From: Acidobacteriota bacterium
GTDB lineage: Bacteria; Acidobacteriota; Terriglobia; Bryobacterales; Bryobacteraceae
Assembly (NCBI GenBank): GCA_025354525.1
Contig: JANXMS010000418.1
Span: forward strand, 1 to 43,938
Length of the DNA stretch: 43,938 nt
Direction of reading: 5' to 3'
In this document: positions 186-17,948 of the stretch, in pieces
Numbering within the stretch: the first letter of the stretch is position 1
Layout of the letters: each line of letters opens with the position of its first letter
The notes under the pieces: model-generated
What the model saw: only the letters and a program-made list of their open reading frames with translations
Databases searched by the model: none
What the model was told of the DNA's origin: nothing
Translations under genes and position numbers: made by a program

Positions 186-216
186 CGCAGGGTGGGCACA
201 AAATCCGGCACAGTGA
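186..216 (+). repeat. Left copy of a 31-bp imperfect direct repeat shared with the integrase 3' end
   Basis: Bases 186-216 match 17776-17806 at 27 of 31 positions, including the exact block AATCCGGCACAGTGA. With a 2-bp gap the similarity continues for about another 20 bp. The right copy lies inside the last codons of the integrase. The left copy has an in-frame stop just before it (TAG at 170-172), so it is not part of an intact gene. It may be the remnant of a related integrase 3' end, or a subterminal integrase-binding site of this element. Confidence 0.6.
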
Positions 217-300
217 AACGATGATCGCAGATACCCAGAACCTTCGCGGTTGTCTCTGCGACGAGTCCCGGGTTGGTATCGAGACTTCCGGAGCCCCTAC

Positions 301-414
301 AGTGGCTTCGTCCGTATTTTATTTGTCTTTTTCCGGACCGATCTCGTATAACTCCCGTGTTTGCATAATAAGTTCAGAAAAACCAGCTCGAAAAAGTGGC
401 TTCGTTTGTATTTT
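301..414 (+). repeat. Pair of 20-bp direct repeats
   Basis: Bases 301-320 and 395-414 share AGTGGCTTCG followed by a two-base difference and GTATTTT, 18 of 20 identical, 94 bp apart. The function is unknown. Position in the junction region suggests integrase arm-type sites or debris of element turnover. Confidence 0.5.
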
Positions 415-940
415 TGTCAATGCGCGGCCTTCGGCTGCCCGCCCGGCGTGCTTCTGCCTGTTTCTATTCGACATGCGATTTGTCTCCCATGTTCAAAATA
501 CTTGGCGACGGCGAAAGAACTGATTCGTGCCGCCTCTCCAAAATGCTCCAAAGCGCCGTCCCTATTGGAGCTGAGGCCCACGAACTTTATTTTTTTGTGT
601 TGTGAACGAGGTAGTCGAGGACGAAAAATAGCGCGGTTCCCTGTGGAGAACCTGTCCTGCCTTGACGGGCTCCGGGGTTGAGGGGCCGAGAGGATGTAGA
701 GGGCGGAGGCGTCGATGGCCAAATTCAACAAATTGTTGGATTTCAATGCTTCGGCGACTTGCATGAATCGACGGATTCCGCGCCTTCACAGGAATCCGTG
801 GCCGTCAAAGCGGCAGATTGTGCCGATTTCAGGTTGGACGCCGCAGACTGCCCTGGATTTCTTGCACGTGGCGGGGTCTTCAAATGCCGCAATTTGCGGG
901 ATGTCAGCGACCGAGCCCTTCGGCAGCCAAATTGGCGAGT

Positions 941-1010
941 TTCAAAACCGACAACGTTGTCGAATTTGAAAACAGACACCGTGTCGGGTTTGAAAACGGA
1001 AACGGTTTCC
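941..1010 (+). repeat. Three tandem ~24-bp repeats, each with its own palindrome
   Basis: The boxes TTCAAAAC (941), TTGAAAAC (966) and TTGAAAAC (990) are each followed by a different palindrome. These are GACAACGTTGTC (950-961), GACAC-C-GTGTC (975-985) and GGAAAC-G-GTTTCC (998-1010). The pairing is kept while the sequence changes, which suggests selection on symmetry, as in protein-binding or structured sites. No gene is assigned here. Confidence 0.6.
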
Positions 1011-1082
1011 GATTTGGGGGCAGGGGAGCAATCAGTGCACCCGGTAATGAACACGTGCGGCCTCGAGTAGGATAGTCAATTC

Positions 1083-1784
1083 ATGGGCACCCGCGTAGAC
1101 AATGAATTGTGGGCAACAAGGAATGCTGCCTTGGGCGACTTGGAAGTTGCGCTGAAGCCGGAGTCGGAAATGGTGCAGGAGGTCTTCCAGGTACTGCGTC
1201 TGATCCTTCACGATCTTGACTCTTTTTTCCAGCCCGCTCCGGGACTGCCCTTGCTCAGTTTGCTAACAGGCATCAAGGGGAGAAACCTCCTCCATGCGTC
1301 CTACGGTCTGTCGCTTGATGGGCTTGCGCAGGAAGCAGGAGCACTGCTCCGCCCGCTACTTGAGGCGGTGGAATTGCTCGTATATTTGCGCACCGTTCCG
1401 GGCGCTATCGAACAGGGCGAATCCTTAACTCTGCCGAGCGCGGGAGTACGCGCAAAGGAAATTGGCGGCGATTTTCACAAGTTGCGCGACCACCTCAACA
1501 AACACGCATGTCACGTAAATCTCACGGAGGAGTCCCTTCGGCACCTCTTCGATGCTTCCGCCGGTCGGACGCGAATTCAGCAACCGCATCGAATTGATGT
1601 TCTCCGCCAGAACCTGCTTTCCTTAACTGCGTTTGGCACCAGCCTGGCCGTGGAGACCTCCTCATGCTTTTCGGAGTGCGCTTTAGTAAGCGGCAAGGCC
1701 CGACATACAGCCGAGGCTCATCGAAACAAGGTCGTTCGTCTCGCGGAAAAGGCACCGGCAGTCTTCAAAGTAGCGCTCGACTAA
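1083..1784 (+). CDS. Hypothetical protein, 233 aa
   Basis: A soluble, leucine-rich, mostly helical protein starting at ATG 1083 with AGGAT 9 nt upstream. Residues 60-110 (including LLRPLLEAVELLVYLRTVP) and the pattern of conserved-looking Arg/Glu/His recall bacterial proteins of the DUF5677 type, but this resemblance is weak and from memory. No signal peptide or membrane helix is visible. It converges with the XRE repressor, with only 8 bp between the two stop codons. It may be element cargo or an old host gene fragment; no function is proposed. Confidence 0.6.
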   Translation: MGTRVDNELWATRNAALGDLEVALKPESEMVQEVFQVLRLILHDLDSFFQPAPGLPLLSLLTGIKGRNLLHASYGLSLDGLAQEAGALLRPLLEAVELLVYLRTVPGAIEQGESLTLPSAGVRAKEIGGDFHKLRDHLNKHACHVNLTEESLRHLFDASAGRTRIQQPHRIDVLRQNLLSLTAFGTSLAVETSSCFSECALVSGKARHTAEAHRNKVVRLAEKAPAVFKVALD

Positions 1785-1792
1785 AACTTCGC

Positions 1793-2209
1793 CTACCCCT
1801 TCGTCCCCCGCTTCCCCTTCTTCGCCGCCGCGTCATATCCCAGCCCTGGATTAATCTCCACGCAAAGCCCCTGAATCTCGCCGAGCACGCCCGGGAAGTC
1901 CACCGGGGTGCCCTCAGCGTGCGCCTCGCGCGCGGCGTCGGCCTTCGACCAGATGGCGGTGATGTGTTCGAGCCCGATGTCGCTTAGCTCGGCGGCGGCG
2001 TCCCAGAACACCCTCGCTAGGTCCAGGCGGTTGGATTGGGCGGCGAGACGGCTAAGACCTACGAGTACATTGGTGTCGGGCCTCGTACCGGATTCGTAAC
2101 GGGCGACCGAGCTCACCGCTAGCCCCAGCTTAACGGCCAGTTGTTGTTGGGTGACGGTGATCGCTTTTCGGAGATCTCGAATGTGTTCAGCGAAACTCAT
2201 TTTTGCCAT
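1793..2209 (-). CDS. XRE-family HTH transcriptional repressor
   Basis: A 138-aa protein with a Cro/C1-type helix-turn-helix at about residues 10-65 (IRDLRKAITVTQQQLAVKLG, then SVARYESG). The C-terminal half is helical and may dimerise. It is divergent from the small HTH gene at 2303, and the 93-bp gap holds two palindromic operators, one ending 3 nt from this start codon, so autoregulation is likely. In phages and satellites the repressor in this position keeps the element silent. There is no obvious Shine-Dalgarno sequence before ATG 2209; ATG 2200 is an alternative start. The inducing signal, host SOS or a helper-phage protein, cannot be read from the sequence. Confidence 0.8.
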   Translation of the reverse strand: MAKMSFAEHIRDLRKAITVTQQQLAVKLGLAVSSVARYESGTRPDTNVLVGLSRLAAQSNRLDLARVFWDAAAELSDIGLEHITAIWSKADAAREAHAEGTPVDFPGVLGEIQGLCVEINPGLGYDAAAKKGKRGTKG

Positions 2210-2211
2210 TG

Positions 2212-2265
2212 ACTACTCAGCATGAGTAGTTTACTTTGGATTGAACTACCCACTAGTGAGTAGTT
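2212..2265. promoter_or_regulatory. Two palindromic operators in the divergent control region
   Basis: Operator 1 (2212-2230) is ACTACTCA-GCA-TGAGTAGT, perfect 8-bp arms. Operator 2 (2244-2265) has 11-bp arms with one mismatch: AACTACCCACT followed directly by AGTGAGTAGTT. Both share the ACTAC(T/C)CA half-site, so one dimeric repressor, most simply the adjacent XRE protein, should bind both. Operator 1 sits against the repressor start codon. Operator 2 lies upstream of the HTH gene at 2303. Confidence 0.75.
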
Positions 2266-2302
2266 GGCGTGCATCCTAGTGATTGTAAGCCATCGGAGGA
2301 TT

Positions 2303-2488
2303 ATGGGAAAGCCTTACCTGACGCCCGAAGATTTGCGCGAGCTCTTGCCGTACTCGCTTCCGGTGATCTACCGAGAGTTGAAAGCGGGCACCATACCATC
2401 GATACGGTTGGGGCGGCGCTACATGATCCCTACCGCCGCCTTCGATGCCTGGCTCGCCTCGTGCGGCCCGCCCCGCTCCGCCGCCTAA
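2303..2488 (+). CDS. AlpA/excisionase-like small HTH protein
   Basis: A 61-aa protein. The pattern YLTPEDLRELLPYSLPVIY followed by GTIPSIRLGRRYMIPTAAFDAWL is the winged helix of MerR-like excisionase/AlpA proteins: recognition helix, then a GRRYxIP wing and a helix. ATG 2303 is chosen because GGAGGA immediately precedes it; an upstream start at 2264 overlaps operator 2 and lacks a binding site. Proteins of this class switch on integrase or excision genes or act as directionality factors. As the first gene opposite the repressor it is a good candidate for the element's early activator. Confidence 0.75.
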   Translation: MGKPYLTPEDLRELLPYSLPVIYRELKAGTIPSIRLGRRYMIPTAAFDAWLASCGPPRSAA

Positions 2489-2624
2489 CGTCGGCTGTCC
2501 TCTCCAGCTTTAAGCCGGTATTGACGACGGACCCTCCATGTCCCAATTTTCAGCAATCCAATTGCAAGCGAACCCGCGCCCGTTGCGGCCGCAAACCGAA
2601 ACCCAACCTAATACGGAGAATACG

Positions 2625-3041
2625 ATGCCAACGAAAGTAAGCAAGGTGGCTGTAGACGCGAGCGCTGCACTCGTCGATAGCGTTGCGCCCGACGAATCCA
2701 AAAGGCCGATGAACCCCGAGGAACTAACGGCGTGGCAGGCAAGCTTCGAATGCAAAATGGGGTGTCACATTCACCGGCAGCATTATTGTTTATCCGGCCG
2801 GGCCGGGCTTAGCCGCGATCGCGAACGCAAGGCCAAAGCGATTCTGGAGGAGATAGGCGAGTTCGTGGACTACGACGATATTTGTATTCTCGGCATGGCG
2901 CTGGACCTGTTGAAAACCGTTCGAGGCGGGCCCATAACCGAGCCGCTGGATGATGGCGATTTCATCGGTTCATTGATGGCGGTGTTAAACGACGACGAGA
3001 GCAAAGTACGCGCCGCTATCGAGCAGCCCGTTCTGACGTAG
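2625..3041 (+). CDS. Hypothetical element protein, 138 aa
   Basis: An acidic soluble protein of unknown function beginning MPTKVSKVAVDASAALV. ATG 2625 has CGGAGA 6 nt upstream and is preferred over ATG 2538, which lacks a site. The middle part holds two Cys and two His (CKMGCHIHRQHYC), a possible metal-binding knuckle. The C-terminal half is acidic and helical. It lies in the early plus-strand run between the AlpA-like gene and the DUF1376 replication gene, so a role in early element functions is possible but unproved. Confidence 0.6.
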   Translation: MPTKVSKVAVDASAALVDSVAPDESKRPMNPEELTAWQASFECKMGCHIHRQHYCLSGRAGLSRDRERKAKAILEEIGEFVDYDDICILGMALDLLKTVRGGPITEPLDDGDFIGSLMAVLNDDESKVRAAIEQPVLT

Positions 3042-3153
3042 ACGACGAGCAGGAAGTTCATCTCGCTTCCCGACACATTCACCCGCGTACCCTCCGCCCG
3101 GCTGCGGTCGGAGTATTGCGCCCAACCACACCAACGAAAATGAGAATTTGAAC

Positions 3154-3813
3154 ATGTCAAAAGCACGGAAATCTATCGGCCTCTTGGCCGCAGCGGTTGG
3201 CCAAGCTACGCCGCTCCAACAGACGGTCGAGCCACTCGAACCCCTCTTCGGCATTGGCGAGCCATGGCCAGAGCCAAAATATCCGGAAGCCAACGACTGG
3301 CGTCTGTTGACCTACTCGGAAGACGGGAACCTTGAGGAACTAATCCTCACACAATCGGAGCACGCTGCGGGCCGTGCGCTCATTGCAGAGCGCCGAGCGG
3401 CTCAATCGAATGGAATATCCGCGTTCGCCGTCTCACCCCGCGCTGCGCTGCCGAAGTTCGGCACCGCTGAACCTGAAAGGCCCAGAATTGAGTCCCCTTT
3501 CGACATCCCCGACCGGCCGCCCCAATTGGGTTGGGACTTGACGACGATGGGCGAAAAGCTTGCAGATGGCGCTCTGAAAGCCGCTCTAGACCTCGAGCTG
3601 GCGTATTTCAAGGCCAATGCCCACGAACTTGACGTCTTTTCGGTAATTGAGGCTATCCGGTTGGCGCGACGGACCTGGGGACCGGACGGCTACCAACGCG
3701 GTAATTTCATTGCCGCGTTTTGTCGCGTCCTCGGCTTTGACGGTCAAAACGGATCAATCCCTGCTGACAGGATATCCATCGTGGACGCCGACAGCATCAG
3801 CGAATCCCAGTAG
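3154..3813 (+). CDS. Hypothetical element protein, 219 aa
   Basis: A soluble protein of unknown function starting MSKARKSIGLLAAAVGQ. ATG 3154 was chosen over an upstream in-frame TTG at 3148 because GAGA lies about 8 nt before it. The centre is proline-rich (ESPFDIPDRPPQLGWD), which suggests a linker between a basic N-terminal segment and a helical C-terminal domain. No catalytic motif is visible. It is co-oriented with, and upstream of, the replication gene. Confidence 0.6.
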   Translation: MSKARKSIGLLAAAVGQATPLQQTVEPLEPLFGIGEPWPEPKYPEANDWRLLTYSEDGNLEELILTQSEHAAGRALIAERRAAQSNGISAFAVSPRAALPKFGTAEPERPRIESPFDIPDRPPQLGWDLTTMGEKLADGALKAALDLELAYFKANAHELDVFSVIEAIRLARRTWGPDGYQRGNFIAAFCRVLGFDGQNGSIPADRISIVDADSISESQ

Positions 3814-3855
3814 CCCTCCAGGGGCCGCCTCACCGCGGCCCTACCCAGGAACCCC

Positions 3856-3963
3856 ATGCCACTCGACAAGTACCTTTCTCCCGAAGCCATCGCCGCGCCT
3901 CTCTCTATACGGGAATCCGCCCCCCATCGCCGCCGGCCGTTCTTCCGAGAGAGGGTCCGATGA
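3856..3963 (+). CDS. Short ORF coupled to the DUF1376 gene
   Basis: A 35-codon frame (MPLDKYLSPEAIAAPLSIRE...) with AGGA about 5 nt before ATG 3856. Its TGA overlaps the ATG of the next gene (ATGA), so its translation could feed ribosomes to the replication gene. It is arginine-rich at the end. It could be a genuine small protein or a leader peptide; there is no homology evidence. Confidence 0.4.
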   Translation: MPLDKYLSPEAIAAPLSIRESAPHRRRPFFRERVR

Positions 3964-4982
3964 AATCCTTCCTCTTCGACGTCGACGCTTGGCTCTCCTC
4001 AACCGCCGTTTCAGCCATGACGGCGGACGAGGAGCGCGGATACTTGCGCCTGCTCCTGCATGCCTGGAAACAGCCGGATTGCGGCCTTCCTGACGACGAT
4101 GGAACCTTGGCTACCCTGAGCCTCATCGGAGCCCGCTGGAAGCGCTCAGCGGCCAAGCTGCGGGCTTGCTTCCAGTCACGCGAGGGCAGGCTGTACAACC
4201 GGCGTCTGCTCGAAGAGTGGGAGTACCAGCGCCGTTACCATTCCGAGCGGGCGACGGCGGGGGCGAAGGGCGCGGCGAAGCGCTGGGGGAACCGGTCGGA
4301 ACCGGATAGCTCAGCTATAGCTGAGCCATTGGCTAAGCTATCGAAAAACGTCGAAAATCGATGGCTGTTCGATGCAAGAGCGAAGAGCGAAGAGCGAAGA
4401 GCTACAGCGGCGGCGAATAGTCCGAGCAGTCCATCGCCGCCGCTCGATGCCGATTTGGCTCAGATTGCCGAGGCTCTGCATGGCTGCATGGCTCCGGGCG
4501 CTTTGCCGCCGGACGAAGCCATCGTTCGGCAGATCGCCGCCGCCGTGCCGCATGCCAGCGCCGAGGACGTGGCGGAGTGGGCCCAGCGTTTCCGCCGCCG
4601 CCGCAAGCCGCCGGAGAGCTACGGGTTCTTCGCCGCCATCGTGGCCGAGGAACTATCGCCGAAGCGCCTGGCGCTCATCAGGACAGCTCGGCCAATGCCG
4701 GAGGACCCGAAGGCAGAGGAGGAGCAGCGGGCAGCGCTGGAGCGGGATCTGGCCGCCGAGGCGGAGGAACGTTTGCGGGTTGACGCAGAGATTGCACGGC
4801 GGGAGGCTGCCGGGACGCTTGAAGCCGATCTGAAGCGGCACGAGGGCGAGGCGAGGGCGGCTGATCCGTTGTGGGATCGGAAGCCGGTGGGGTTGCGGCG
4901 GGAGGTGGCGTTGGCGGGGGTGCGGGGGGAGTTTACCCGTGAACGCCTCAGTCCGCTAGGGCTTCTGGTTCTCAATCGTTAG
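3960..4982 (+). CDS. DUF1376 (YdaU-like) replication protein
   Basis: A 340-aa protein. Residues 1-100 carry the DUF1376 pattern: FDVDAWLSSTAVSAMTADEE, then RGYLRLLLHAW, a 'GLPDDDGTLATLS' loop and RLYNRRLLEEWE, followed by the typical linker GAKGAAKRWGN. Such proteins stand in the place of phage replication initiators (YdaU, lambda O-like) and are often found beside a helicase or loader gene. The C-terminal part (about 230-300) is Glu/Arg/Ala-rich helix. An 18-bp perfect palindrome and a 7-bp triple repeat fall in the linker. The last 27 bp overlap the convergent gene 4956-5801, so the 3' end may have been altered when the minus-strand cassette arrived. Confidence 0.8.
   Translation: MKSFLFDVDAWLSSTAVSAMTADEERGYLRLLLHAWKQPDCGLPDDDGTLATLSLIGARWKRSAAKLRACFQSREGRLYNRRLLEEWEYQRRYHSERATAGAKGAAKRWGNRSEPDSSAIAEPLAKLSKNVENRWLFDARAKSEERRATAAANSPSSPSPPLDADLAQIAEALHGCMAPGALPPDEAIVRQIAAAVPHASAEDVAEWAQRFRRRRKPPESYGFFAAIVAEELSPKRLALIRTARPMPEDPKAEEEQRAALERDLAAEAEERLRVDAEIARREAAGTLEADLKRHEGEARAADPLWDRKPVGLRREVALAGVRGEFTRERLSPLGLLVLNR
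4309..4402. repeat. 18-bp palindrome and 7-bp tandem repeat inside the DUF1376 gene; candidate origin
   Basis: GCTCAGCTATAGCTGAGC (4309-4326) is a perfect palindrome. It is followed by a locally A-rich stretch (about 4340-4360) and by GAGCGAA repeated three times (4378-4398) plus GAGC. In lambda-type systems the replication origin lies inside the initiator gene, in the linker between its domains, and this cluster sits in exactly that position here. That parallel is inference. Confidence 0.45.
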
Positions 4983-5801
4983 GCTGATTCGACCACCTTC
5001 CTGCGTGTAGGAGATTCTAGCCGGGGAGAGAGAAAGTGTCGTATTGGTGCTCTGCGTTGCTAGGTGTCCTGAGTCCTTGGACTCCGCGGACGAAGCGGTT
5101 TCGTCCGCCGGATCGTTTTCTTCAATATCCTCTACGAAATACTTTTGGTAGAAATCGATATCGAAGAGGTTTGCGGTTTGGACGTCTTTCAATGGAATGG
5201 TCACGACGAAATCTTCGGAATCGCGAGCAGGGTCGTTCAAGGCGTCTGAATAGAACGTTGTCGGGACCGCTTCCAGCGTGTCCTTATCGCGGTATCCGCT
5301 CATTAGCGGCAGAATTCGAAAATACAGTTCATGCGGGCTTAGGTTGGGCGCTTCGGCCACAAGACCTACATACCACTTGCGGTTTAAGAGAGAGATAGAG
5401 ATTAAGTCGCCTTCCTGATCGGCGCAGTAGAGGAATCTCGTAAGTGTATTGCCGTGCCGGTGGACTTCCCATCGCTTCGCGGTTTCTCTGTCAACTACGA
5501 CATTGATGGCGAGAGCTAAAATCGGGCCAAGGAGCACCGCCCACGCTGCCGTATCCGCGTGCTCCCACGGAAAGAGTTTTGGCCATTTTTCACCAGCCCA
5601 GATCCCAATATCCATGCAACCTGTCCAGTGAACAACCAATCGTGCGAAAACGCCGAGCACGGTCCCGGCGATTGCCGACTCAACCAGCAGCCGATATCCA
5701 TCCACCCTTTGCGCGTGAAAGCGAAAGAAATTATTCAGATGAAGGAAGAGAAATCCGCCAAGCAGCGGGAAAAGGAGCAGATTATATGGCATCCTCGCCA
5801 T
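4956..5801 (-). CDS. Membrane protein of unknown function, 281 aa
   Basis: Three hydrophobic helices are visible near the N-terminus (about residues 5-22, 41-60 and 86-105). A soluble domain follows with the segment LNRKWYVGLVAEAP and then RILPLMSGYRDKDTLEAVPTTFY. The latter recalls a family of inner-membrane hypothetical proteins (possibly DUF6338-like; from memory, not verified). The C-terminal tail (about 230-281) is acidic and Ser/Thr-rich. ATG 5801 is used; ATG 5792 is possible. It overlaps the preceding small gene by 20 bp and is the last gene of the minus-strand cassette headed by the tape-measure-like gene. Cargo function, such as phage exclusion, is conceivable but unsupported. Confidence 0.6.
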   Translation of the reverse strand: MARMPYNLLLFPLLGGFLFLHLNNFFRFHAQRVDGYRLLVESAIAGTVLGVFARLVVHWTGCMDIGIWAGEKWPKLFPWEHADTAAWAVLLGPILALAINVVVDRETAKRWEVHRHGNTLTRFLYCADQEGDLISISLLNRKWYVGLVAEAPNLSPHELYFRILPLMSGYRDKDTLEAVPTTFYSDALNDPARDSEDFVVTIPLKDVQTANLFDIDFYQKYFVEDIEENDPADETASSAESKDSGHLATQSTNTTLSLSPARISYTQEGGRISLTIENQKP

Positions 5802-5979
5802 TCGTGGTGTGCGTCCGCCGCTCCGATTCGGCCTTCCGAACCAATTGCGCGACCTTCACTTTGGCCACTTTCTCAAGCATTTCTTGAACCCTTGGCTCAC
5901 GGATTAGCGCACGGGTGTTGACGATTGTCCGTCCATCGAACGTCACCCGAGAAGTCTTTTCCTTTGACATGGTTTTCAT
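5782..5979 (-). CDS. Small protein between tape-measure-like and membrane genes, 65 aa
   Basis: The peptide begins MKTMSKEKTSRVTFDGRTIV and is basic and helical in its second half. ATG 5979 has GGAG 7-9 nt upstream, better than an upstream in-frame ATG at 6012. It is 85 bp downstream of the tape-measure-like gene and overlaps the next gene by 20 bp, suggesting one transcript. The function is unknown. Confidence 0.55.
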   Translation of the reverse strand: MKTMSKEKTSRVTFDGRTIVNTRALIREPRVQEMLEKVAKVKVAQLVRKAESERRTHTTNGEDAI

Positions 5980-6064
5980 ACTATACTCCAAAGCCATACA
6001 GCGTGGCTCCATACATTAAGCGTAGTTCCCAAGCCATCAAAAGAGCAACCGGCTGGTCCAACGA

Positions 6065-9000
6065 TCAGATCCCCAAAACCACTTCCTGCGCGGTCCGGTT
6101 AATTCCGTGTCCTTCAAGCATCGCCTGGCGAACCGCGTCGGTGAACATCTCGCGGTTGTCCATAAAGCTGCGGTTGTCGAGGGTGCTGAGATTGACCTGC
6201 ACGTTGATGCTCCGCAAATCCCCCCGCGAGTTGTAGTCAAACCCACCGCCGCGCGTGTCGAAAGCGTAATCGAGCGGCTGTGTTTCGTTGTAGCGGGAGT
6301 CAGATACGAGCCGGTCCAGCGCCCGGTCTCGGTTCTTTTTGGGATCACCGATCAAGGCAGCCGTCGCGACAAGCGCGAGCGCTATGCCTGCCATGATTGG
6401 GGCGGCAGGGCCGCTAGCGGGAGACAGCGCAATAATCGTCGCCGCCGCACCGGCGATAGATGACGCGCCCATTAAGTTTCCCTGCGCACCACCAGCCTTG
6501 AATCCGTTTATCGCGCCCAATGTCCCCGCCAATGCCGCGCCCGCGTAGCCGACGCCCTTGTTGAGCGCGGAGACCTTGGGGGATACTGAAAAATTCTGAC
6601 CCGCGTTCAGCACCGACGTCCCCGGCACGCTCGAAACTTGGCTCATGTCGCGACCGAACGAGCCCGTTACGTTGAGAGCATCGAAGCCGGGAAGGGAGCT
6701 AGCTGCCATCGTGCCCGAGCCCGTGCCCGATCCAGCGAAGAACGCCGAAGACGGGATGAACGCCGCCGGATTGCTCCGCGTGAACGCCGACAATACCCCG
6801 CCAATGCTCGACGCAGCCCCACCACCGCCGCGCACGAGCAGCGCAGCAGTATTCGCCGTCGTCGCCGCCGTGTTCGCGTCTGTGGCCGTCTTCAGTGGGT
6901 CGCCAGAGTTCTGGGGGTCGAAGAGCGTGCCGCCGAGGACGCTGCTGCTCAGCCCGCTCGCCTTGCCCAGCCGCCCCAGGAAGCCCCCGGCGTCTTTCGC
7001 CAGCTTCTCCGTTAAATTCTGCGCGACGATGCGGCCCTGGCCGAGTACGACGGATTTGCCCAGCGCCGTGATACCACCAGCGCCACCTGACACCAATGCA
7101 TCGAAGGCGCGGCCTGTCGCTTCCCGGCCCGCGTCGCGCCGTTTCTTGTCCAGTTCGGCGAGTCCGATAACACGCTCGCGCTCGATCTGGTTTTGCCGGT
7201 CTCGGACGTTGAACATCTCCAGCGACACCGATGCCTCTTCCTCCAGTGCCGCCAGCTTCAGCTTGGCAATGGATTCGATAGCCGCGCGTTCGCCGCCGGG
7301 GCCTGTGAGAAGCTCGAGCTTGCGCGTCAGGAACGAAAGCTCTTGCTGGTTGGTCTGAAGGCGGCGGGAGCGGTCGCGTTCGTCCTTCGCGTTCATGCCT
7401 GCTAGGAATGCGGTCGAGCCTTTAGTGGAATCGTCGCCGCTCGGCACGCCAGGAATCTCGAAGACGCCAGGGGCTGCCTCGCTCGACCTGCGGAGGGTCG
7501 GAGCGTTCGAGCCTAGGCCGCTGGTGATAAATTGATCGACGCCCATCGCGGCCTTGCCCCGCGCTAGGCTCCGAAACGAGCTGCCCTCGTTCAGTATTCC
7601 GTTTACCCGCTCGCGTTCCGCGTCTTTTATTTGGTTGGCTTGGCGTTCATCGAATAACCCGCCGATGCTCGAAATCTGCGACGGGCGGAGGTCCTTATTC
7701 TTGCCCTCGCGGATAGCCTTTCCTCGGTCGCCGATCTCGTCCGAAATGCTCTTGTACGAGCCGCTCAGGATCCTGCCGGAAAAGAGAGCGAAGTCGTGGT
7801 CGAACTCGCGCTGCTGGTTTGCTATCTTCTCGCGCAACGCGTTCTCGATGCCGAGCGCTTTAATGCGAGCTTCGATCACTGATACCGACTTGGTTTCCGT
7901 AGCCACCAGATCGGCAAAACTGGCCTTCTGCGATGTATCCGCATCGAGAAACAGCTTTTTAGCCCGCTCCAGCGCTTTCTCGGATTGTCCAAGCCGGGAG
8001 CGAAGCCCGTCCGCCGTGTTGTCGGGCGCTGAGATTATCGCATTCGCGGCTTTCAAGCTCGCAGAACTGCCAAGCGAACGAAGCGCAAACCCGCCAGTGT
8101 CCTTGTTCGTCAACTGCTCCCCTAGCCGCTTGCGGGCGTCCAAGGTGAACTGTTCGCGGTAATCGAGATCCGTAGGGAGAGGCCGGAATCTCTTTTCGGA
8201 CTTCGGCATGAACGCTGGATTATCGCCAGAAGGATCGAAGTCCGGACCCTGAACGTTTACAAACCCGGCGCTATCCTTTGCCGCCTGCCTAGCTGCCTTC
8301 GCAACGTCTACCGTAAAAATAGCCAGCTTGATCTTGCCGCTTTCAATAAAGTTGCTTAGCCCGTCGCTCAGATCGTCGAACGGGTGGAAGTTCCTTAAAA
8401 TATCCACCATGCCCTGCAACCCTTCTCGCGTGGGGCCGTCTAACTGGGCCGAGAATTCTTCAGCACGCTTGAGCTGTCTGACCAATCGGTCGTCGATTAA
8501 GCTAAGCGCGTCGCCAGCGTTCTTTCCGAATTCCTTTACAGCGACCTTGGATCTGTCAATTGGATCGGCGATGCCCGACAGTCGCTTGTTTAGCGCATCG
8601 ACCTCATCGACGGACTTGTCCGAAATAAAGTCCAAATTTCGGTTGGTCACCTTCGCCGCTCGCTTGATCGCGTAGGATGACCCAAAACTACTGCCGCCCT
8701 CCGCCGCGTGCATGGAGGCATCTAGCACTTTGTCCGCTTGCTCCCTTGCGTTGCGGATTGCGGCCTCGATCACCAGCCCTACCCCTATCGTGGCAGCGGT
8801 GCCCAGCAGCGCCCGAGCCCCAAACGCCGCCGAAGACGCCAGCCGCGTCGCCCGATACGTCGCGAGAGTACGGCTAAGCGCAACGTCAGAGCGCATGGTC
8901 GCAGCGGTGAACTTATCGACAGAGCCAGCAAGAACGTCAAAGATTTCTTTTGTAGCGACAACACCAGCTCCGATGCCTATGATGCTGTTGCGGACGCGGT

Positions 9001-10314: not shown

Positions 10315-10404
10315 CCGCGAAAAGCCGCTTTCCCCGAAAACTCCTCAATTCCCCTGAATTCTCCTGAGTTTCTCCCTGGATTCGAACATATGGGATCGCC
10401 GAAT

Positions 10405-10434: not shown

Positions 10435-10451
10435 GAAAAGGGGATCTCAAG

Positions 10452-10670: not shown

Positions 10671-10674
10671 AACT

Positions 10675-10806: not shown

Positions 10807-11006
10807 GCCGCCCGCGCATCAACGGGTTCGACCCGACGACCAAAAAATACAAGCGGCTGCAGAAGCGCATGGACATCGCCAACCTGAATGGCGTCGTGCG
10901 CGTCCTCAAGCGCTTTGGCGATCATGACGCCCTGGCTGCGGCATCGCTGGCGATGTGGTGTATCGCGGGACCTGCGCGGGAGAAGGCAAGGGAGGAGGCC
11001 GAATGA
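10803..11006 (+). CDS. Small basic protein, 67 aa
   Basis: It starts MSRPRINGFDPTTKKYKRL at ATG 10803 with GGAGG 4-5 nt upstream. The N-terminal 35 residues are Lys/Arg-rich, followed by an alanine-rich helix. The stop overlaps the start of the primase-like gene (ATGA), so the pair is probably co-translated. The function is unknown; a helper of replication is suggested only by context. Confidence 0.55.
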   Translation: MSRPRINGFDPTTKKYKRLQKRMDIANLNGVVRVLKRFGDHDALAAASLAMWCIAGPAREKAREEAE

Positions 11007-11582: not shown

Positions 11583-12619
11583 GCGCCAGAACCGAAACGC
11601 AGATCACGAGCGACCTGATGTCGAACCACTCTTTCGGGCCGGAGGCTGCGGCAAAACGCGAGCGGCGGGTGGAGCCGAAGCCCTTGACTATCGTTAGCGG
11701 CTATCAGATCCTTCGAGGCAATTACCCGCCCCCTGTCTTCCTTTTCGAGAACCTGATTCACAACGGCGTGACTATCTTGGCGGGTCGGCCCAAGGTGGGG
11801 AAAAGCTGGCTTGCTCTTCAAATTGCAATAGGTGCCGCGCTGGGTCAGCCCGCTCTTGGCAGGTTCTACTGCCCTAAGCCGCATGGAGTTCTCTATTTCG
11901 CACTGGAGGAATCCGAGGGCAGGACCCATAACTGGCAAAAACGGTTCATCACCGCGGGCGCGCCGAATGCCATCTTTACCGACAACATCGGTATGGTCTA
12001 CGACCTGGAGCCGCTTTCCCGAGGAGGAGTGGAACAGATCGACGCTGCGCTCTCCGCAAAGCAATACGGCCTGGTCATCATTGATACGTTCCTGAGGGCT
12101 CAGGGCGGCATCAGGAAGCCAAAGAACGGCGATCCGCTCCAGGAGGACTACGAGAGTATCAAGCCACTCCAGCAACTCGCGCAGAAGCATAAGACCGCCA
12201 TCTTGTTGATCCACCACAGCCGAAAGATGGGAGCCGAGTACGCGCTCGACCAGATCGCCGGAACGACCGGGCTGACCGCTTCGAGCGACTCCAACTGGAC
12301 ACTGAACCGCACCGCGCAAGGCGTAACGTTGACGATTCAAGGCCGCGATATGGCAGACGCCGAATGGTCCCTACGGTTTGAACAGGATGACCCGTTGACC
12401 TTTGGCTGGAGCGTCGCTGGAACGGCTGATGAGGCGCGAACCAGCGGGGAACGGCGGGCTGTTTTAGATGTCCTGAGAGAAAACGGCGGGCTGATGAAGC
12501 CAGCGGAAATTGCGACCGCGTTGGGACGCAACCGCGCAACTGTTCGCGGCCTTCTGGCCAGAATGCGGTCCGATGCGCTTATCTGTTCCGAGAATGGCGA
12601 CTACCGCTTACCTAAATAA
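11579..12619 (+). CDS. RepA-type replicative helicase / AAA_25 ATPase
   Basis: A 346-aa RecA-fold ATPase. Walker A is GRPKVGKS (69-76), Walker B is LVIIDT (165-170), and LLIHHSRK (209-216) is the third motif typical of RepA/hexameric-helicase relatives. The last 55 residues form a winged helix (LMKPAEIATALGRNRATVRG). Such proteins unwind plasmid, satellite or phage origins. ATG 11579 overlaps the primase-like stop (ATGA), so primase and helicase are a translational pair. Iteron-like repeats begin 4 bp after its stop codon, fitting an origin next to its initiator genes. Confidence 0.85.
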   Translation: MSARTETQITSDLMSNHSFGPEAAAKRERRVEPKPLTIVSGYQILRGNYPPPVFLFENLIHNGVTILAGRPKVGKSWLALQIAIGAALGQPALGRFYCPKPHGVLYFALEESEGRTHNWQKRFITAGAPNAIFTDNIGMVYDLEPLSRGGVEQIDAALSAKQYGLVIIDTFLRAQGGIRKPKNGDPLQEDYESIKPLQQLAQKHKTAILLIHHSRKMGAEYALDQIAGTTGLTASSDSNWTLNRTAQGVTLTIQGRDMADAEWSLRFEQDDPLTFGWSVAGTADEARTSGERRAVLDVLRENGGLMKPAEIATALGRNRATVRGLLARMRSDALICSENGDYRLPK

Positions 12620-12622
12620 CTA

Positions 12623-12712
12623 TAAACACCTTAAACACATACAACAGCCTAAACACCCTCAACAGGGTAAACACCCTCAACAGGGAGCCGTTTAGCCTGT
12701 TGACCCTGTTTA
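12623..12712. repeat. Iteron-like repeats behind the helicase; candidate replication origin
   Basis: TAAACACCCTCAACAGGG occurs twice in perfect tandem (12650-12667, 12668-12685). An inverted copy follows at 12696-12712, CCTGTTGA-CCC-TGTTTA, differing mainly in its central three bases. Two shorter TAAACAC words precede it (12623, 12632). The cluster lies in a 152-bp gap between the helicase and the next gene and is A/T-rich at its left edge. Direct iterons next to replication genes are typical binding sites of satellite or plasmid initiators. Confidence 0.65.
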
Positions 12713-12771
12713 CCTGTTTTAGCTACGCGACGAATCGCCACCCAGCAACCGCAACCCATAGGAGATTCACA

Positions 12772-13038
12772 TTGACCCCCAAAAAACGACTCAAGAAACT
12801 CATTCAGCACGCCCGCAGCCTCGAACTCGAGGCCGAAGCCGTCGAACTCGAACGGCTGGTCGGCGACAAATTCTGGATCGATGGCGACCGAGAACGGGCG
12901 GGACGCTGGGGCGAGCGATGCCGAGGCCGACTCGAAGCGATCCGGCTGCGCCAGCAGGCTATTGCGACCGAGATCGCCGAGCTTCAAGCCCAGCCGGACG
13001 CAGCCATGGAATCAAGGGAGGAGACCTTTGCAGCCTAA
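12772..13038 (+). CDS. Small coiled-coil protein, 88 aa
   Basis: TTG 12772 is the likely start (GGAG 7 nt upstream); an earlier in-frame start at 12700 would cover the iteron region. The peptide TPKKRLKKLIQHARSLELEA continues as an almost unbroken charged helix with heptad-like Leu/Ala spacing. The function is unknown. It is the first of four consecutive plus-strand genes encoding helical proteins, with overlapping or closely spaced ends. Confidence 0.55.
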   Translation: MTPKKRLKKLIQHARSLELEAEAVELERLVGDKFWIDGDRERAGRWGERCRGRLEAIRLRQQAIATEIAELQAQPDAAMESREETFAA

Positions 13039-13456
13039 CGCCCCCGTCACTGCGGTCGACGCGATGTTCGTCGCTCTCGAGCACGCCTTAGTCAGCAGGC
13101 AGAAGGTCGTCGAGCAGCTCGCAGAGCTGACCCCTGCCCTCGACGGGTTGCAGCGGGCCCTCGACGAGTCCCGGCGCTCCTCACCGGCCTCTGATCCACC
13201 CGCTGTTTCAGAGTCGCACCAGCCCTCCGCCGAAAATGCCAAGGCGACGCTCGCGACGCTAGAGGGATACATCGCGCTTCTAGGAACTGAACTCACCCAT
13301 CTCGACGCGGTCCTGACGCGCGAGTTCCCCGGCATTGAGCGTGTGTTCCTTGAAGCCTATGGCCACCAACTCAGCCTTTACTGGGCCGCCGGTGCAATCG
13401 TGCAACTGGCCGCTACGCCCCCGACCTCGCCCCAACCAACGGAGACGATTCAATGA
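13028..13456 (+). CDS. Helical protein of unknown function, 142 aa
   Basis: TTG 13028 (LQPNAPVTAVDAMFVALEHAL) follows AAGGGAGGAGACC and overlaps the preceding gene by 11 bp; ATG 13064 is an alternative. Residues about 10-50 and 70-120 are amphipathic helices separated by a Ser/Pro-rich linker. The stop overlaps the next start (ATGA). It is part of the late-looking block upstream of the terminase small subunit. No domain is recognised. Confidence 0.5.
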   Translation: MQPNAPVTAVDAMFVALEHALVSRQKVVEQLAELTPALDGLQRALDESRRSSPASDPPAVSESHQPSAENAKATLATLEGYIALLGTELTHLDAVLTREFPGIERVFLEAYGHQLSLYWAAGAIVQLAATPPTSPQPTETIQ

Positions 13457-13653
13457 CAACGCCCAACGACCTTTCGGTTGAACGCTTCACCGCCGCCCGC
13501 GCCATCGCCAATGCCGAGGCCGAATTGAAGACGCTCCTTCAACGAATTCACCAGAACCCGGCGTGCCCGAAGTTACGCGCACGCCTCGCCGAAGTCCGAA
13601 ACATCCTGGCCGGTCGCCCAAAGATGGGCGCGGCCTTCCACGTCAACCTCTAA
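13453..13653 (+). CDS. Small helical protein, 66 aa
   Basis: It begins MTTPNDLSVERFTAARAIAN. ATG 13453 overlaps the previous stop (ATGA), indicating coupled translation. It is one predicted long helix followed by a basic tail. The function is unknown. Confidence 0.5.
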   Translation: MTTPNDLSVERFTAARAIANAEAELKTLLQRIHQNPACPKLRARLAEVRNILAGRPKMGAAFHVNL

Positions 13654-13670
13654 CCCCCAAGGAAACCAAC

Positions 13671-14450
13671 ATGAAACTATTCAAACGAGAAACCCCCTTC
13701 GAAAGCACCGTGGCCGCCGTCCGCGCCACGATTGCCGAACGCGCGCACTTGACCGCGTTGATCGAAAACGCGCACGGCGAACTGGCGGGATGCCAGGCCA
13801 AGCTCGACAGCATTCGCGTCGGGCTGGAAGATGCGGAGGTCGCCGCCGTCCTCGGCACCGGTGGATCGACTGATGGTCTCCGCACTGAGCTCGCCGGGCT
13901 GTACGCTGCAGGAGACGCCATCGAAGCGCGCATCACTGGTTTGAAGCGCCGCCTCGCGGAGTCCGACACTCAATTGGAACGCAGCCAAGCGACCCTCCAG
14001 GTTGCCCGCGCCGCATGGAATCTCCAGCAAATTGTGGCCTTCGAAGAGCGCTATCTGAAAGTGGTTGACGAGTTCCGCGCCATCACCCGCCAAGCGCTGG
14101 CGCTAGGGGTGGCTCTCGGTGAAGATGCCCTCCAGGTCGCCGCCTGCGGTAATTGCGCCTTCGGCCTGATGGGCGGGGCGAGCATCCTGGAAGAGACCCG
14201 ATACGCCCCTTACGCCGCCGCAGACAGCTCGCCCAATTGGGAGGCCGACGCGAGGGCCAAAGCTTTTTTCGAGGCGAACAAAGGGCCGCGCCTCATCGAT
14301 CAGGAGTTGAGTAAGTTGATTGCAGATACACGCTCCCGGCCCGCGCGGGAAGCATGGCGGGCGAAGGAGAACGCGGTGCGTGAAAAAGCGGAACGTACCA
14401 TCAGTGACTACAAATTGCAGGAAAGCCAAGACGCTCGGCGGATTGCCTAG
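13671..14450 (+). CDS. Coiled-coil protein, paralogue of the 15706-16584 gene
   Basis: A 259-aa protein starting MKLFKRETPFESTVAAV at ATG 13671, with AAGGAAA upstream. A long coiled coil covers about residues 15-130. A compact region follows with a Trp/Asp core (SPNWEADARAKAFFEANKG), then a charged helical tail ending ARRIA. The gene at 15706 has the same N-terminal signature, coiled coil, W.(A/R)DA.A..FEAN core and tail, so the two are paralogues on either side of the HEASH and terminase genes. Scaffolds and capsid-size determinants are often coiled-coil proteins, but any such role here is speculation. Confidence 0.65.
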   Translation: MKLFKRETPFESTVAAVRATIAERAHLTALIENAHGELAGCQAKLDSIRVGLEDAEVAAVLGTGGSTDGLRTELAGLYAAGDAIEARITGLKRRLAESDTQLERSQATLQVARAAWNLQQIVAFEERYLKVVDEFRAITRQALALGVALGEDALQVAACGNCAFGLMGGASILEETRYAPYAAADSSPNWEADARAKAFFEANKGPRLIDQELSKLIADTRSRPAREAWRAKENAVREKAERTISDYKLQESQDARRIA

Positions 14451-14453
14451 GCC

Positions 14454-15089
14454 ATGTGGATTCGATTCGGCGGTGACGATCAACGCGTGAGGACTTCGTA
14501 CCACGAGGCCAGCCACGCTTGCATGGCGAGGCTCCATGGGCTGCCGGTTTACGAATGCTCAATCGTTCCGGGCCCTGGAACCCTCGGCCATGTGGCGTTG
14601 CGCGCCAACAGCCGACTGCCCGAACCAAAATCGCCGTACTGCCCATTCCCGCGAGGGTCCCGAACTCCGCTCGATCAGTACTGCACGACGGCGACCGAGA
14701 TCGAATACATGAAGGCCCGAGTGAGAACGTCTCTCTCGGGCGCGCTTGGAGAAGCCCGTTCCTCGTTGGGCCGCCCGCGTTGGGGGAGCGACCGTCGCGG
14801 GGCTGCTCTTGCCGCCTTGATCACCCTTGGCGGACGGTGGCAACGATCCGTCGATGTTCTTCGGACTGAACTTCCCATCGTCCGCCGTCTCATCGCCGAT
14901 CACCGGCTCTATGCGGGGATAGATCGGCTGGCCCGGCACTTGCTCCTGGAGCCCGTCGTGGGGCAGGAAGTCGTTGATCGCTGCATGAACGGAATCGATT
15001 GCGAAGCCGTTCTTCGAGACGCATGCGAGCCCATCGACAACGGAGAGCAAGGCTTAGCACCCCCCGGGGGCATTCGGGTCCTTGGCTAG
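14454..15089 (+). CDS. M41-like HExxH putative zinc metallopeptidase
   Basis: A 211-aa protein. HEASH (residues 17-21) within TSYHEASHACMARLHGLPV matches the active-site helix of FtsH-type (M41) peptidases. The next strand, ECSIVPGPGTLGHV, also follows the M41 pattern. A later SGALGEARSSLG ... GSDRRGA segment sits where that family has its third zinc ligand. It lacks the AAA ATPase domain and membrane helices of FtsH, so it is a stand-alone peptidase domain. It lies 3 bp after the coiled-coil gene and 80 bp before the terminase gene. The substrate is unknown; maturation of an element or helper protein is conceivable. Confidence 0.65.
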   Translation: MWIRFGGDDQRVRTSYHEASHACMARLHGLPVYECSIVPGPGTLGHVALRANSRLPEPKSPYCPFPRGSRTPLDQYCTTATEIEYMKARVRTSLSGALGEARSSLGRPRWGSDRRGAALAALITLGGRWQRSVDVLRTELPIVRRLIADHRLYAGIDRLARHLLLEPVVGQEVVDRCMNGIDCEAVLRDACEPIDNGEQGLAPPGGIRVLG

Positions 15090-15169
15090 CCAAATACTAC
15101 AAAGGTAGAGTCTCTGTCCACGAGGGGCAGTCACTACCCCCAAAAAGCACTTTCCGCTTATAGAGCCAT

Positions 15170-15709
15170 ATGAGAACTAAATCCATTACGAAAAAGACCG
15201 GCCTCACTCGGCAAGGCGTCAATTTCAAACGCCGGAGAGGCGAGTCAGACGCCGAGATCATCGCAGGCCATGGCACGTCCGACGCCTCCGGCGAAACGCT
15301 AGCCTCCGCGCAACTCCGAAAAGAGAAAGCTCTCGCCGACCTCCGTGAGCTCGAAGTAGCACAGAAGTCCGGCTCCCTTGTTTCCCTTGACCACGCCGTG
15401 CTTGCCGGTGCCGCGATGGCGCAAATGACGCGGCAACGAATGTCGACGATCCCTGGAGCGTTGGCCGGAGTTCTCGGCGCAACAACCGACGAGCGGGAGA
15501 TTCGCACTATCCTAGACGCCGAGATTTCTCGGCAACTCGAACACCTCTCAAACGATTTCCTTTCCGCTGCTGACGAAGGCATCGCGGACGGAAGGTCGCC
15601 CCAAGGAGCGCCTGAAGACGATGAAACGCACGACGCTAAGCCCATCACTCCCAAGCCCAAAAGTAAACCCCAGCCCGCCACCGGCGGCCCACACAAAGGA
15701 AAATCATGA
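15170..15709 (+). CDS. Phage terminase small subunit, Nu1-like
   Basis: A 179-aa protein. The N-terminus has a helix-turn-helix-like segment (KKTGLTRQGVNFKRRRGES). The central part shows the Nu1 signature: LRKEKALADLRELEVAQKSG then SLVSLDHAV, an ...RQRMSTIPGAL helix and a terminal ILDAEISRQLEHLSNDF helix. The tail is acidic then Pro/Lys-rich. Small terminases choose the DNA to be packaged (cos or pac recognition) and recruit the large motor subunit. No large subunit is encoded in the window. In phage satellites a private small subunit redirects the helper's motor to satellite DNA. Its stop overlaps the next start (ATGA). Confidence 0.75.
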   Translation: MRTKSITKKTGLTRQGVNFKRRRGESDAEIIAGHGTSDASGETLASAQLRKEKALADLRELEVAQKSGSLVSLDHAVLAGAAMAQMTRQRMSTIPGALAGVLGATTDEREIRTILDAEISRQLEHLSNDFLSAADEGIADGRSPQGAPEDDETHDAKPITPKPKSKPQPATGGPHKGKS

Positions 15710-16584
15710 ACTTGTTCAAAACCAAGACCCCGATTGATTCCGCCATCGCGGAGATTGAAAACGCCATCGAACAGCGAAGCCAGCTGCAACGCCTCCTGGT
15801 CGCTGCCGAAGCGGATAGCGAGCAGGCCCAGGCGCAGGCCATCGCCGCCCGGTCCCGGTTGGATGCCGAGGAGGCCGAACTCGCCCTCTCTGGCTCACCC
15901 GGTCCCAGTGGGAGCAGCCGGGCGATTACGGAAGCTGAAGTTCGGCTGGCGTCGGTTGAAGCGCGGATGCGGGGGCTCAGCGTGAAGCTGGCCGAGAACC
16001 GCGAGGCGCTGGCCCGGCAGCAGGGAGGACTCACGGCGCTGCGGCGGGACTGGAACCGCGAGCGGATCGCCGAACTGATGCCGGAGTATCTGAAGGCGGC
16101 GGCAGCCTTTGCCGCGGTTAACCGGAAGATGTACGCCCTTGCTCTTGCGGTAAATGACGAGACCGCGAAGAGCGCTTGCCAGGTCGCGGCGGCACTCTCC
16201 CCTGAAACCGGCGTGTTCCTTTTGCAAAGCCCGGCGGACATGGTGGCGGATGGCTATCCCGACGGATGGCACCAGAATTGTTGGTCGCCGGACTGGAAGC
16301 GAGATGCGAAGGCCGTGGCTGTTTTCGAAGCAAACGCGACGCCGCTTCAACTTGCCGAGAAGGTGACGGCGGCACTGGAGGACATCCAGAACGAGGAGCG
16401 CCAGGTTCGGGAAGCCGAAGCCGAGGCGGCCGCCCGCGCGAAGATGAGTCCCGGCCAACAATTTGCTACCGATCAGGCCGAGAGTGCGCGGCTGGCCCGC
16501 GAGCGGGAGATGTCTCGTGAAGATCGGCTGTGGCACGAGGCTCAGCAGAAACGGCGTGAGTTTGAAAGTCGGCGGGTGGCGTAG
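15706..16584 (+). CDS. Coiled-coil protein, paralogue of the 13671-14450 gene
   Basis: A 292-aa protein starting MNLFKTKTPIDSAIAEI at ATG 15706, with AAGGA upstream, and overlapping the terminase stop (ATGA). A coiled coil spans about residues 15-125. The core is SPDWKRDAKAVAVFEAN and the tail, rich in Glu/Arg/Ala, ends SRRVA. These features mirror the 259-aa protein at 13671. It adds a Cys/Trp segment (GYPDGWHQNCW) before the core. Translational coupling to the terminase small subunit hints at a packaging or particle-assembly role; this is inference. Confidence 0.65.
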   Translation: MNLFKTKTPIDSAIAEIENAIEQRSQLQRLLVAAEADSEQAQAQAIAARSRLDAEEAELALSGSPGPSGSSRAITEAEVRLASVEARMRGLSVKLAENREALARQQGGLTALRRDWNRERIAELMPEYLKAAAAFAAVNRKMYALALAVNDETAKSACQVAAALSPETGVFLLQSPADMVADGYPDGWHQNCWSPDWKRDAKAVAVFEANATPLQLAEKVTAALEDIQNEERQVREAEAEAAARAKMSPGQQFATDQAESARLAREREMSREDRLWHEAQQKRREFESRRVA

Positions 16585-16667
16585 CAGCCAGACGGGGAGG
16601 AGGGCGGCCTCCCCGATTTGGCCATAATCGTTGACGGTGGTTGAGATCACCCGAAGGAGTAATGCAG

Positions 16668-17855
16668 ATGGCAGTCTACAAGCGCGGGAACATGTGGTGG
16701 TACCGCTTTGTTTGGAACGGCGACGAGATTCGCCAAAGCTCGAAGCAGACCAACAAACGAACCGCAGAAAAGATGGAGGCCGCCCACAAGAACCGTCTTG
16801 CCTTGGGCGAAGTCGGCATTCGGGAAAGGGTGAAGATCCCCGCTTTGAAGCAGTTCGCGGAGAAGGACTTCCGGCCCTTTATTCGCCAGCACTGCGCGGA
16901 CAAGCCGAGGACACTCGCCTACTACGAGGGCGGGCTTGCTTCCTTGCTGGCCGTTCCGACGCTGGCGAATGCCCCTATTGACGCGATCCGGCAGGAGCAG
17001 ATTACGGCATTCGTTTCGGTACTTCGAGAGAAGGGCTTCGAGGTCTCCAGCATGAACCGGAAGCTAGAAGCCCTCAGGCGGATGTTCAAGTTAGCAACGG
17101 AATGGGAGAAGGTGGGAAAGGTTCTCCCCATCGTCCGAATGCTCCCGGGGGAGAAGAGACGGGAGCGGGTACTCACGGGCGAGGAGTGGGCCGCCTATCT
17201 CGCGGCGGCCGTCGCCATCGGCGACGATGCGCTGACGGCCTATGCACGGGCGCAGGCTGGCATTCGGGCGACGATGCGGGGCGAGACGCCAGCAGCTCCC
17301 CGCGATCCCTATATACTGCGGGATGCAGCGCTTTTGCTAATGGAATGCGGTCTCCGCCCCGAGGAGTGTCACCGGCTGCGGTGGTGTGAGATTTCCGAAG
17401 GGGCCCTTCGCATTGCGCATGGTAAGACGGAGAACGCGCGGCGGGTGATTCCGTTGAACGAGCGATCCGCGAGCGCGTTGGAGATGCGGCGGACGATTAC
17501 GGGTGGGTCGGAGTGGGTATTCCCCGCACCAACCAAGAGCGGCCACATGGAGCAGTCCAGCATTAAAAAACAGCACGCCGCGGCGTGCGCGAGCGCACAG
17601 ATCACTTTCTTGCCGCCGTACACGTTCCGCCACACTTGTCTGACCCGCTGGGCGGCGCATATGGACCCTTACACGTTGGCTTATCTTGCTGGCCATAGCG
17701 ACTTCACCACGACAAAGCGGTATGTTCACCCGCAGAAAGAGCAAGTACTCGAAGCCATGCGAAAGGCGAGCGAAGCGCAGAGTCCGCACAGAATCCGGCA
17801 CAGTGACGATTCACGGCAGATTCCCGATACCCTCGAAAAATCCGTAATCCATTGA
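16668..17855 (+). CDS. Tyrosine recombinase/integrase
   Basis: A 395-aa phage-type integrase. ATG 16668 (MAVYKRGNMWWYRFVWNG) is chosen because AAGGAG ends 8 nt before it. An N-terminal arm-binding domain (1-60), a SAM-like core-binding domain (about 70-150) and a catalytic domain follow. Catalytic residues are Arg230 (GLRPEE), Lys253, Arg321 in PYTFRHT, His343 (AGHSD) and the nucleophile Tyr352 (RYVHP). The usual box-II His is Tyr here, as in many related integrases. The gene stops 16 bp from the 3' end of tRNA-Arg, which is the expected attachment site. The last codons contain the 31-bp sequence repeated at 186-216. Confidence 0.9.
   Translation: MAVYKRGNMWWYRFVWNGDEIRQSSKQTNKRTAEKMEAAHKNRLALGEVGIRERVKIPALKQFAEKDFRPFIRQHCADKPRTLAYYEGGLASLLAVPTLANAPIDAIRQEQITAFVSVLREKGFEVSSMNRKLEALRRMFKLATEWEKVGKVLPIVRMLPGEKRRERVLTGEEWAAYLAAAVAIGDDALTAYARAQAGIRATMRGETPAAPRDPYILRDAALLLMECGLRPEECHRLRWCEISEGALRIAHGKTENARRVIPLNERSASALEMRRTITGGSEWVFPAPTKSGHMEQSSIKKQHAAACASAQITFLPPYTFRHTCLTRWAAHMDPYTLAYLAGHSDFTTTKRYVHPQKEQVLEAMRKASEAQSPHRIRHSDDSRQIPDTLEKSVIH
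17776..17806 (+). repeat. Right copy of the 31-bp imperfect direct repeat
   Basis: It lies within the last codons of the integrase and matches 186-216 at 27 of 31 positions. See the left copy for interpretation: remnant of a related integrase 3' end, or a paired recombinase-binding site near both element ends. Confidence 0.6.
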
Positions 17856-17871
17856 TTGCGGATGACTTAAA

Positions 17872-17948
<77 letters not shown>

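Follow-up and report, generated by a model that had tools for sequence, protein, structure and literature searches.

The window analysed here is the entire contig C58 (43,938 bp) of the Acidobacteriota genome G000, which belongs to a soil bacterium and is an assembly of 633 contigs that is 97% complete. Its left part carries an element with the well-supported architecture of a phage satellite, resembling a phage-inducible chromosomal island (PICI) and adjoining a tRNA-Arg(acg) gene (17872-17948, minus strand), the integration target. The element encodes a terminase small subunit (TerS; 15170-15709, plus strand) and an intact tail tape-measure protein of 1053 residues (TMP; 6065-9226, minus strand). 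A first-pass annotation had drawn such an island at 186-17871; the element itself stands, but it appears to extend from ~142 to 17868 (~18 kb), and its left attachment (att) site lies outside the window on contig C511.

As the first-pass annotation had it, the integrase lies beside the tRNA gene. This tyrosine integrase (16641-17855, plus strand, possibly starting at 16662; Phage_integrase, E = 1.6e-19; phrog_1, 3e-44) ends 16 bp before tRNA-Arg(acg), whose 3' part forms the core of the right att site (attR, 17869-17916). The partner, attL, is found at C511:11935-11982, with 47 of 48 bp identical. Up to attL, C511 consists of chromosomal genes, two of which look by eye like a ligase and a transporter gene. 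The gene on the right flank of the tRNA (18016-19404) is present in 14 of the 19 genomes of the genus, and tRNA-Arg(acg) adjoins it in 13 of these 14 loci. In G001 the site is empty, as the C511-type ligase and transporter genes stop 19 bp from the tRNA. On a single contig of G006 the same left genes are followed by one extra gene, an att copy, an island, the tRNA and the right-hand genes known from C58. This 9.6-kb island differs in content, and its integrase is 58% identical to that of G000. G004 has an integrase remnant at the locus, and at the remaining 10 loci both the transporter and a G000-family integrase are missing from the available stretch (one is without the tRNA in view and another reaches only 38 bp past it). 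Because of the G001 empty site, the G006 island and the locus comparison, C511 and C58 are taken to flank one insertion. The att pair and the empty site together provide the own attachment site with flanking repeats that is typical of a PICI. Counting G000, 8 of the 19 genus genomes have an integrase of the G000 family (at least 50% identity) next to a tRNA gene, and the accompanying gene content varies.

The left end of the island is interrupted by a multi-copy insertion sequence (IS; IS4-like by eye), whose right end occupies 1-133 (plus strand) and in whose left end C511 terminates. Of the 6 bases flanking the IS on either side (TTTAGG/TTTAGA), 5 agree, and a target duplication is therefore no proof that one IS joins the two contigs. 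The element also has an end repeat, GCACARAATCCGGCACAG, at 196-213 (left copy GCACAAAATCCGGCACAG, plus strand, identified by a 12-mer search and proposed as an integrase arm site) and at 17786-17803 (right copy, plus strand). Its 12-mer ATCCGGCACAGT is exact only there within 1-18200 and finds no exact match in the remaining 25.7 kb of the window. A weaker copy of the repeat is positioned 132 bp inside attL in G006, and in G000 the distance is 144 bp once one IS is subtracted; this spacing supports a single-IS join, and we infer the order C511-IS-C58. The first-pass annotation had held that head genes between the left att site and position 1 would turn the element into a prophage. With attL located on C511, no prophage head genes would lie in that interval if a single IS bridges the contigs. 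A prophage cut by the contig end was rejected in view of attL on C511 and the empty site in G001. In addition, no G000 contig is bordered on one side by the right end of the IS and on the other by its left end; C38 turned up for both IS ends through one and the same terminal-repeat stretch. Continuation of C511 into C206 is possible in the assembly graph; C206 starts with a shortened IS followed by chromosomal-looking genes and, as judged by eye, offers no phage genes. Copies of the IS, with CCCAATACTCGTCA ends, occur on C511, C564, C495, C557, C463 and other G000 contigs, and several have longer inverted flanks ending AAACTAAA, perhaps a preferred target.

By definition, PICIs carry no structural or lysis genes beyond those for packaging or remodelling, and the P4 core comprises psu, delta and sid, among others. 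Of 108 listed open reading frames (ORFs), 104, each of at least 60 residues, were scanned against PHROGs and Pfam, the other 4 extending past 17800 into or beyond the tRNA. No large terminase (TerL), portal, capsid or tail-tube family was found in these 104 ORFs, the best 25 of 36 PHROG families being covered down to E = 0.0017. The same scans contain none of the capsid-forming genes that characterize capsid-forming PICIs (cf-PICIs) and, given the proposed C511-IS-C58 join, no TerL, portal and major capsid genes lie between the att sites as in a prophage. The absence of these genes had been noted at first pass, yet a structural gene, that of the TMP, is present and had been overlooked. The small terminase was correctly recognised (phrog_57, 2.8e-17). 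It has no relative in the 18 other genus genomes, IMG/VR or solved structures, and matches 3 INPHARED records at E = 3e-3 to 4e-3.

The TMP has no PHROGs or Pfam match and was recognised through its relatives. A full-length relative is found in IMG/VR on two near-identical contigs of an uncultivated phage (3300017784_002398 and 3300017777_001797; L082/L066 and L065), with 64% identity to the L082 protein (670 of 1039 aligned residues; 63% by tblastn). L082 encodes a major capsid protein (phrog_1005, 3.6e-91), and tail-like genes precede and follow its TMP in order (by eye). DNA homology to L082 covers 6064-9226 of the window, that is, the ORF plus one base, and stops at the gene ends; by tblastn, these capsid- and tail-bearing phage fragments have no other gene in common with the island. 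Comparison of the two genes gives a dN/dS of 0.30/1.50, with 300/227/573 changes at the first, second and third codon positions. This third-position excess indicates long purifying selection that cannot be assigned to either branch. The window TMP has no relative among INPHARED phages.

Two further TMPs without head genes in view occur in G032 and G600, genomes of the same order as G000. The G032 island (C6:181339-195652) is 14.2 kb long, is bounded by an att repeat of 24/24 bp at a tRNA-Leu gene and encodes two AlpA-like proteins (phrog_66), a TerS (phrog_51, 7.5e-33), a TMP (phrog_3779, 4.1e-15), an xis-like protein and an integrase (10 ORFs scanned; first 3.6 kb gene-called only). Its TMP gene starts inside the TerS gene with a 34-bp overlap, and the xis-like gene in turn starts inside the TMP gene. 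Within this TMP, phrog_3779 matches residues 204-291, and residues 650-1036 resemble the window TMP; the two lines of evidence thus fall within one protein rather than in one stretch. On C30 of G600, chromosomal genes are followed by an integrase, XRE/AlpA genes, a ParB-like gene, a weak TerS-like ORF (phrog_57, 0.0035), a coiled-coil ORF and a 1197-residue TMP, after which the contig stops, so that one end of this island is seen. Neither the G032 nor the G600 TMP has a relative in IMG/VR.

When 61 relatives were searched with the window TMP, 12 genomes matched, mostly over short C-terminal stretches; those in genus genomes, within frames of 170-245 residues, are not full TMPs. The G032 TMP matched in 6 of 200 genomes of the order. 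Loci in G489 and G457 and two places in G496 resemble prophage tail operons (by eye from the neighbours, without a PHROG scan), and the G562 contig, at 3578 bp, is too short to judge context. In a nine-row TMP tree, the window TMP groups with the L082 phage TMP (support 100/100). A single clade of the three satellite TMPs is rejected (approximately unbiased test, p = 9e-7), as is a grouping of the window and G600 TMPs alone (1e-5); long branches call for caution in a tree that omits G562 and G351 and in which the G048 row joins two adjacent ORFs. Capture of TMPs by satellites therefore probably happened repeatedly.

Other sibling islands lack a TMP. The G006 island carries a TerS (phrog_4102, 1.2e-34), a scaffold-like ORF (phrog_206, 1.1e-5), a replication gene and a serine recombinase, and an island of G019 carries a weak TerS-like ORF (phrog_641, 5.7e-4). 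The islands of G004 (8 kb) and G014 (8.5 kb) have the same integrase family, AlpA and a primase or helicase, with no convincing TerS. TerS is thus a repeated rather than a constant passenger. The G019 island (L054, G019:C232) lies at tRNA-Pro, and a minus-strand block in it (5257-8651 of L054) combines the TerS-like ORF with an HNH endonuclease.

The regulatory and replication genes are arranged in two modules. In the left one, an XRE-type repressor-like gene (1793-2209, minus strand; HTH_3, 4.9e-9) diverges from AlpA-like gene 1 (2264-2488, plus strand; HTH_17, 1.4e-11; phrog_66, 6.1e-6), and a DUF1376/primosomal-type replication gene follows (3960-4982, plus strand; PF07120, 4.7e-10; phrog_9327, 1.2e-6). 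The divergent pair is as first described; the paired operators claimed for it are not, as a single 22-bp palindrome lies between the genes as an operator candidate (2244-2265). The right module contains the second of the two AlpA-like genes seen at first pass (10413-10670, plus strand; phrog_66, 8e-8; Pfam HTH_17 only 0.002, below cut-off), which has relatives in sibling islands. It continues with a primase N-terminal-like gene (10955-11582, plus strand), a RepA/DnaB-like AAA helicase (11579-12619, plus strand; AAA_25, 6.9e-27) and, after the helicase, 2.4 copies of an iteron-like 18-bp repeat (12642-12685). The last part holds two helical paralogues around a peptidase-like ORF and TerS, then the integrase. 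The helicase, repeats and primase-like gene had all been anticipated, but the primase is split by a frame change at a run of ten G (11176-11185), its halves corresponding end to end to residues 4-59 and 57-187 in a single intact G013 protein of 190 residues. The frame change could be a mutation, phase variation or an assembly error. Apart from this split, the integrase, AlpA-type regulator and primase/replication genes of a PICI are in place.

Islands similar to the right module occur in G004 (AlpA 35%, helicase 48%) and G013 (AlpA 50%, primase halves 64% and 43%), and XRE and AlpA 1 of the left module have their best relatives in G600 (37% and 56%). The earlier suggestion of two nested satellites gains support from this separation of the XRE/AlpA pair from the AlpA/primase/helicase/integrase block, and a fusion of two satellite modules is plausible and probable, with no internal att copy seen in the element.

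Taken together, these features make it likely that the element is a satellite. The fuller reading, in which a PICI-like satellite at tRNA-Arg(acg) contributes its own TMP to the tails of a helper phage, is the one we favour with some reserve, and for use of the TMP in the satellite's own particles we put the chances at about even. A helper siphophage related to L082 would supply capsid, portal, TerL, tail tube and tail tip. The AlpA/XRE switch would respond to this helper, the satellite primase and helicase would replicate the satellite, and its TerS would steer packaging. During tail assembly the satellite TMP would replace or compete with that of the helper, and satellite DNA would exit in chimeric-tailed particles in which the satellite TMP sets length and DNA-entry properties. 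Tail length would be expected to remain unchanged because the two TMPs are nearly equally long (1053 versus 1043 residues); the entry step would differ, or the particle would escape a TMP-directed block. We doubt that the G000 copy is still fully active, since its primase is split and an IS sits at its end.

A precedent comes from the PICI-like elements (PLEs) of Vibrio cholerae, satellites of phage ICP1, for which a 2026 report, the first on satellite-encoded TMPs, showed the protein to be built into chimeric tails and transfer to fall by 96-99.9% without it (PMC12987554). The present element is alike in encoding its own TMP. In contrast, PLEs have a tail chaperone, PLE11 has a baseplate hub, the helper is contractile-tailed and the TMPs cluster in one satellite family (PMC12987554), whereas here a TMP occurs with a TerS, the corresponding L082 operon is of non-contractile type (by eye), the host is an acidobacterium and captures appear separate. 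The 104-ORF scans reveal no tail chaperone, although chaperones are divergent and PLE genes were not compared.

Several observations weigh against the favoured reading. TMP relatives at E <= 1e-8 are found in 2 of 396 genomes of the phylum, one being G000 itself, and three TMP carriers stand against many siblings without one. Neither PHROGs nor Pfam labels the window or L082 TMP as a tape measure, and the sole PHROG match of the G600 TMP is weak and to another family. The window TMP is encoded on the strand opposite to TerS and integrase, with no tail chaperone or hub gene found beside it, unlike in PLE. A relative of the L082-type capsid is found in 0 of 19 genus genomes and in 4 of 81 relatives overall, and the window TerS matches neither of the 2 L082-type contig fragments nor anything else in IMG/VR. 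The primase split means that the copy may be defective. As for the left end, the end-repeat copy of G004 is external to attL, none is seen near attL in several siblings, and C206 has the final 141 bases of C511 in identical form, so the join, with IS flanks matching at only 5 of 6 bases, stays provisional.

The split primase, the IS at the left end, a phage-type moron gene and the two regulatory modules would also suit a decayed prophage or prophage/island mosaic that lost its phage genes, kept TerS and TMP by chance and mobilises nothing. Decay of this kind sits poorly with an intact TMP whose phage DNA homology ends at the gene ends, with the same TerS and TMP pair in overlapping frames in the att-bounded G032 island, with the lone TMP of G600, with three TMPs that do not form one clade and with the TerS of the G006 island at the same site; we regard it as unlikely. 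An ordinary integrative island with phage-like genes as cargo, mobile in another way (generalised transduction, for example), is suggested by the G004 and G014 islands, which share the integrase family, AlpA and primase/helicase without a convincing TerS. It is the least probable of the readings considered here, because TerS proteins of three PHROG families, in G000, G006 and G032, are hard to explain without phage packaging.

It is also conceivable, if improbable, that the element is a satellite whose TMP serves defence, as a decoy spoiling the tails of invaders or by exclusion of related phages. PMC11364771 was counted in its favour, and a gene standing alone on the opposite strand would be in keeping with a defence role. 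However, the overlapping TerS-TMP-xis string of G032 suggests late expression together with packaging, and a decoy would not need a full-length TMP. Returning to the tail-donating satellite, a broader proposal is that Acidobacteriota satellites repeatedly and independently took TMPs from siphophages and build chimeric tails with no other structural gene, beside TerS. This is put forward tentatively, at slightly less than even chances. If it is true, a TMP-only swap would be a general satellite strategy across phyla and tail types, perhaps altering DNA entry or escaping TMP-directed defences.

Among known islands, Gram-negative PICIs such as EcCICFT073 share with the element an integrase, AlpA, primase/replication genes, an own att site and the lack of capsid genes (PMC6092414, where the term 'Acidobacteria' occurs 0 times). 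The present element differs in its TMP and its two AlpA-like modules. The cf-PICIs have TerS and, according to the legend of Extended Data Fig. 10 in PMC12987554, putative tmp genes in a sampling of them, as in PLE-like elements; in contrast, the G000 element has no capsid-forming genes in its 104 scanned ORFs. Among titles and abstract openings in the open-licence literature, we found no description of a satellite with TMP and TerS in Acidobacteriota and no paper naming phage satellites of Acidobacteria. Satellite TMPs in a distant phylum, beside TerS and from different phages, would suggest a testable rule, namely that it may benefit satellites to encode the inner ruler of the tail themselves, and Acidobacteriota gain a set of att-bounded satellite candidates.

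A helper within G000 was considered and rejected, as the genome has a single TMP match and no L082-type capsid gene, the search being limited to that capsid type. In G032, a complete-looking prophage on C10 has a putative TMP unrelated to the satellite TMP at E = 1e-3. The last 40 residues of a G032 satellite protein (L084:3831-5078) share 70% identity with a small gene near G032:C10 288372-288491, within the tail cluster of this prophage, which could reflect a helper link or an exchanged tail part.

TerS is flanked by a diverged pair of all-helical paralogues (13671-14450 and 15706-16584, both plus strand; 32% identity). The second has a predicted AlphaFold2 structure (pLDDT 72, pTM 0.47) with no PDB match at E <= 0.001 (best E = 0.12) and hence no function from it. 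Neither has a relative in 60 other genomes, nor the second in IMG/VR. Between the first paralogue and TerS lies a weakly peptidase-like ORF (14454-15089, plus strand; PF02163, 0.019; PF01434, 0.064; both below cut-off). Near the left end, a 25-bp repeat present in about three copies (932-1016) precedes an ORF without a match in the PHROGs and Pfam scans (1083-1784, plus strand). The moron-like gene (4956-5801, minus strand; phrog_3630, 9.8e-25) encodes a membrane protein also present in prophages, with 32 IMG/VR loci, and its family is scattered across many bacterial prophages.

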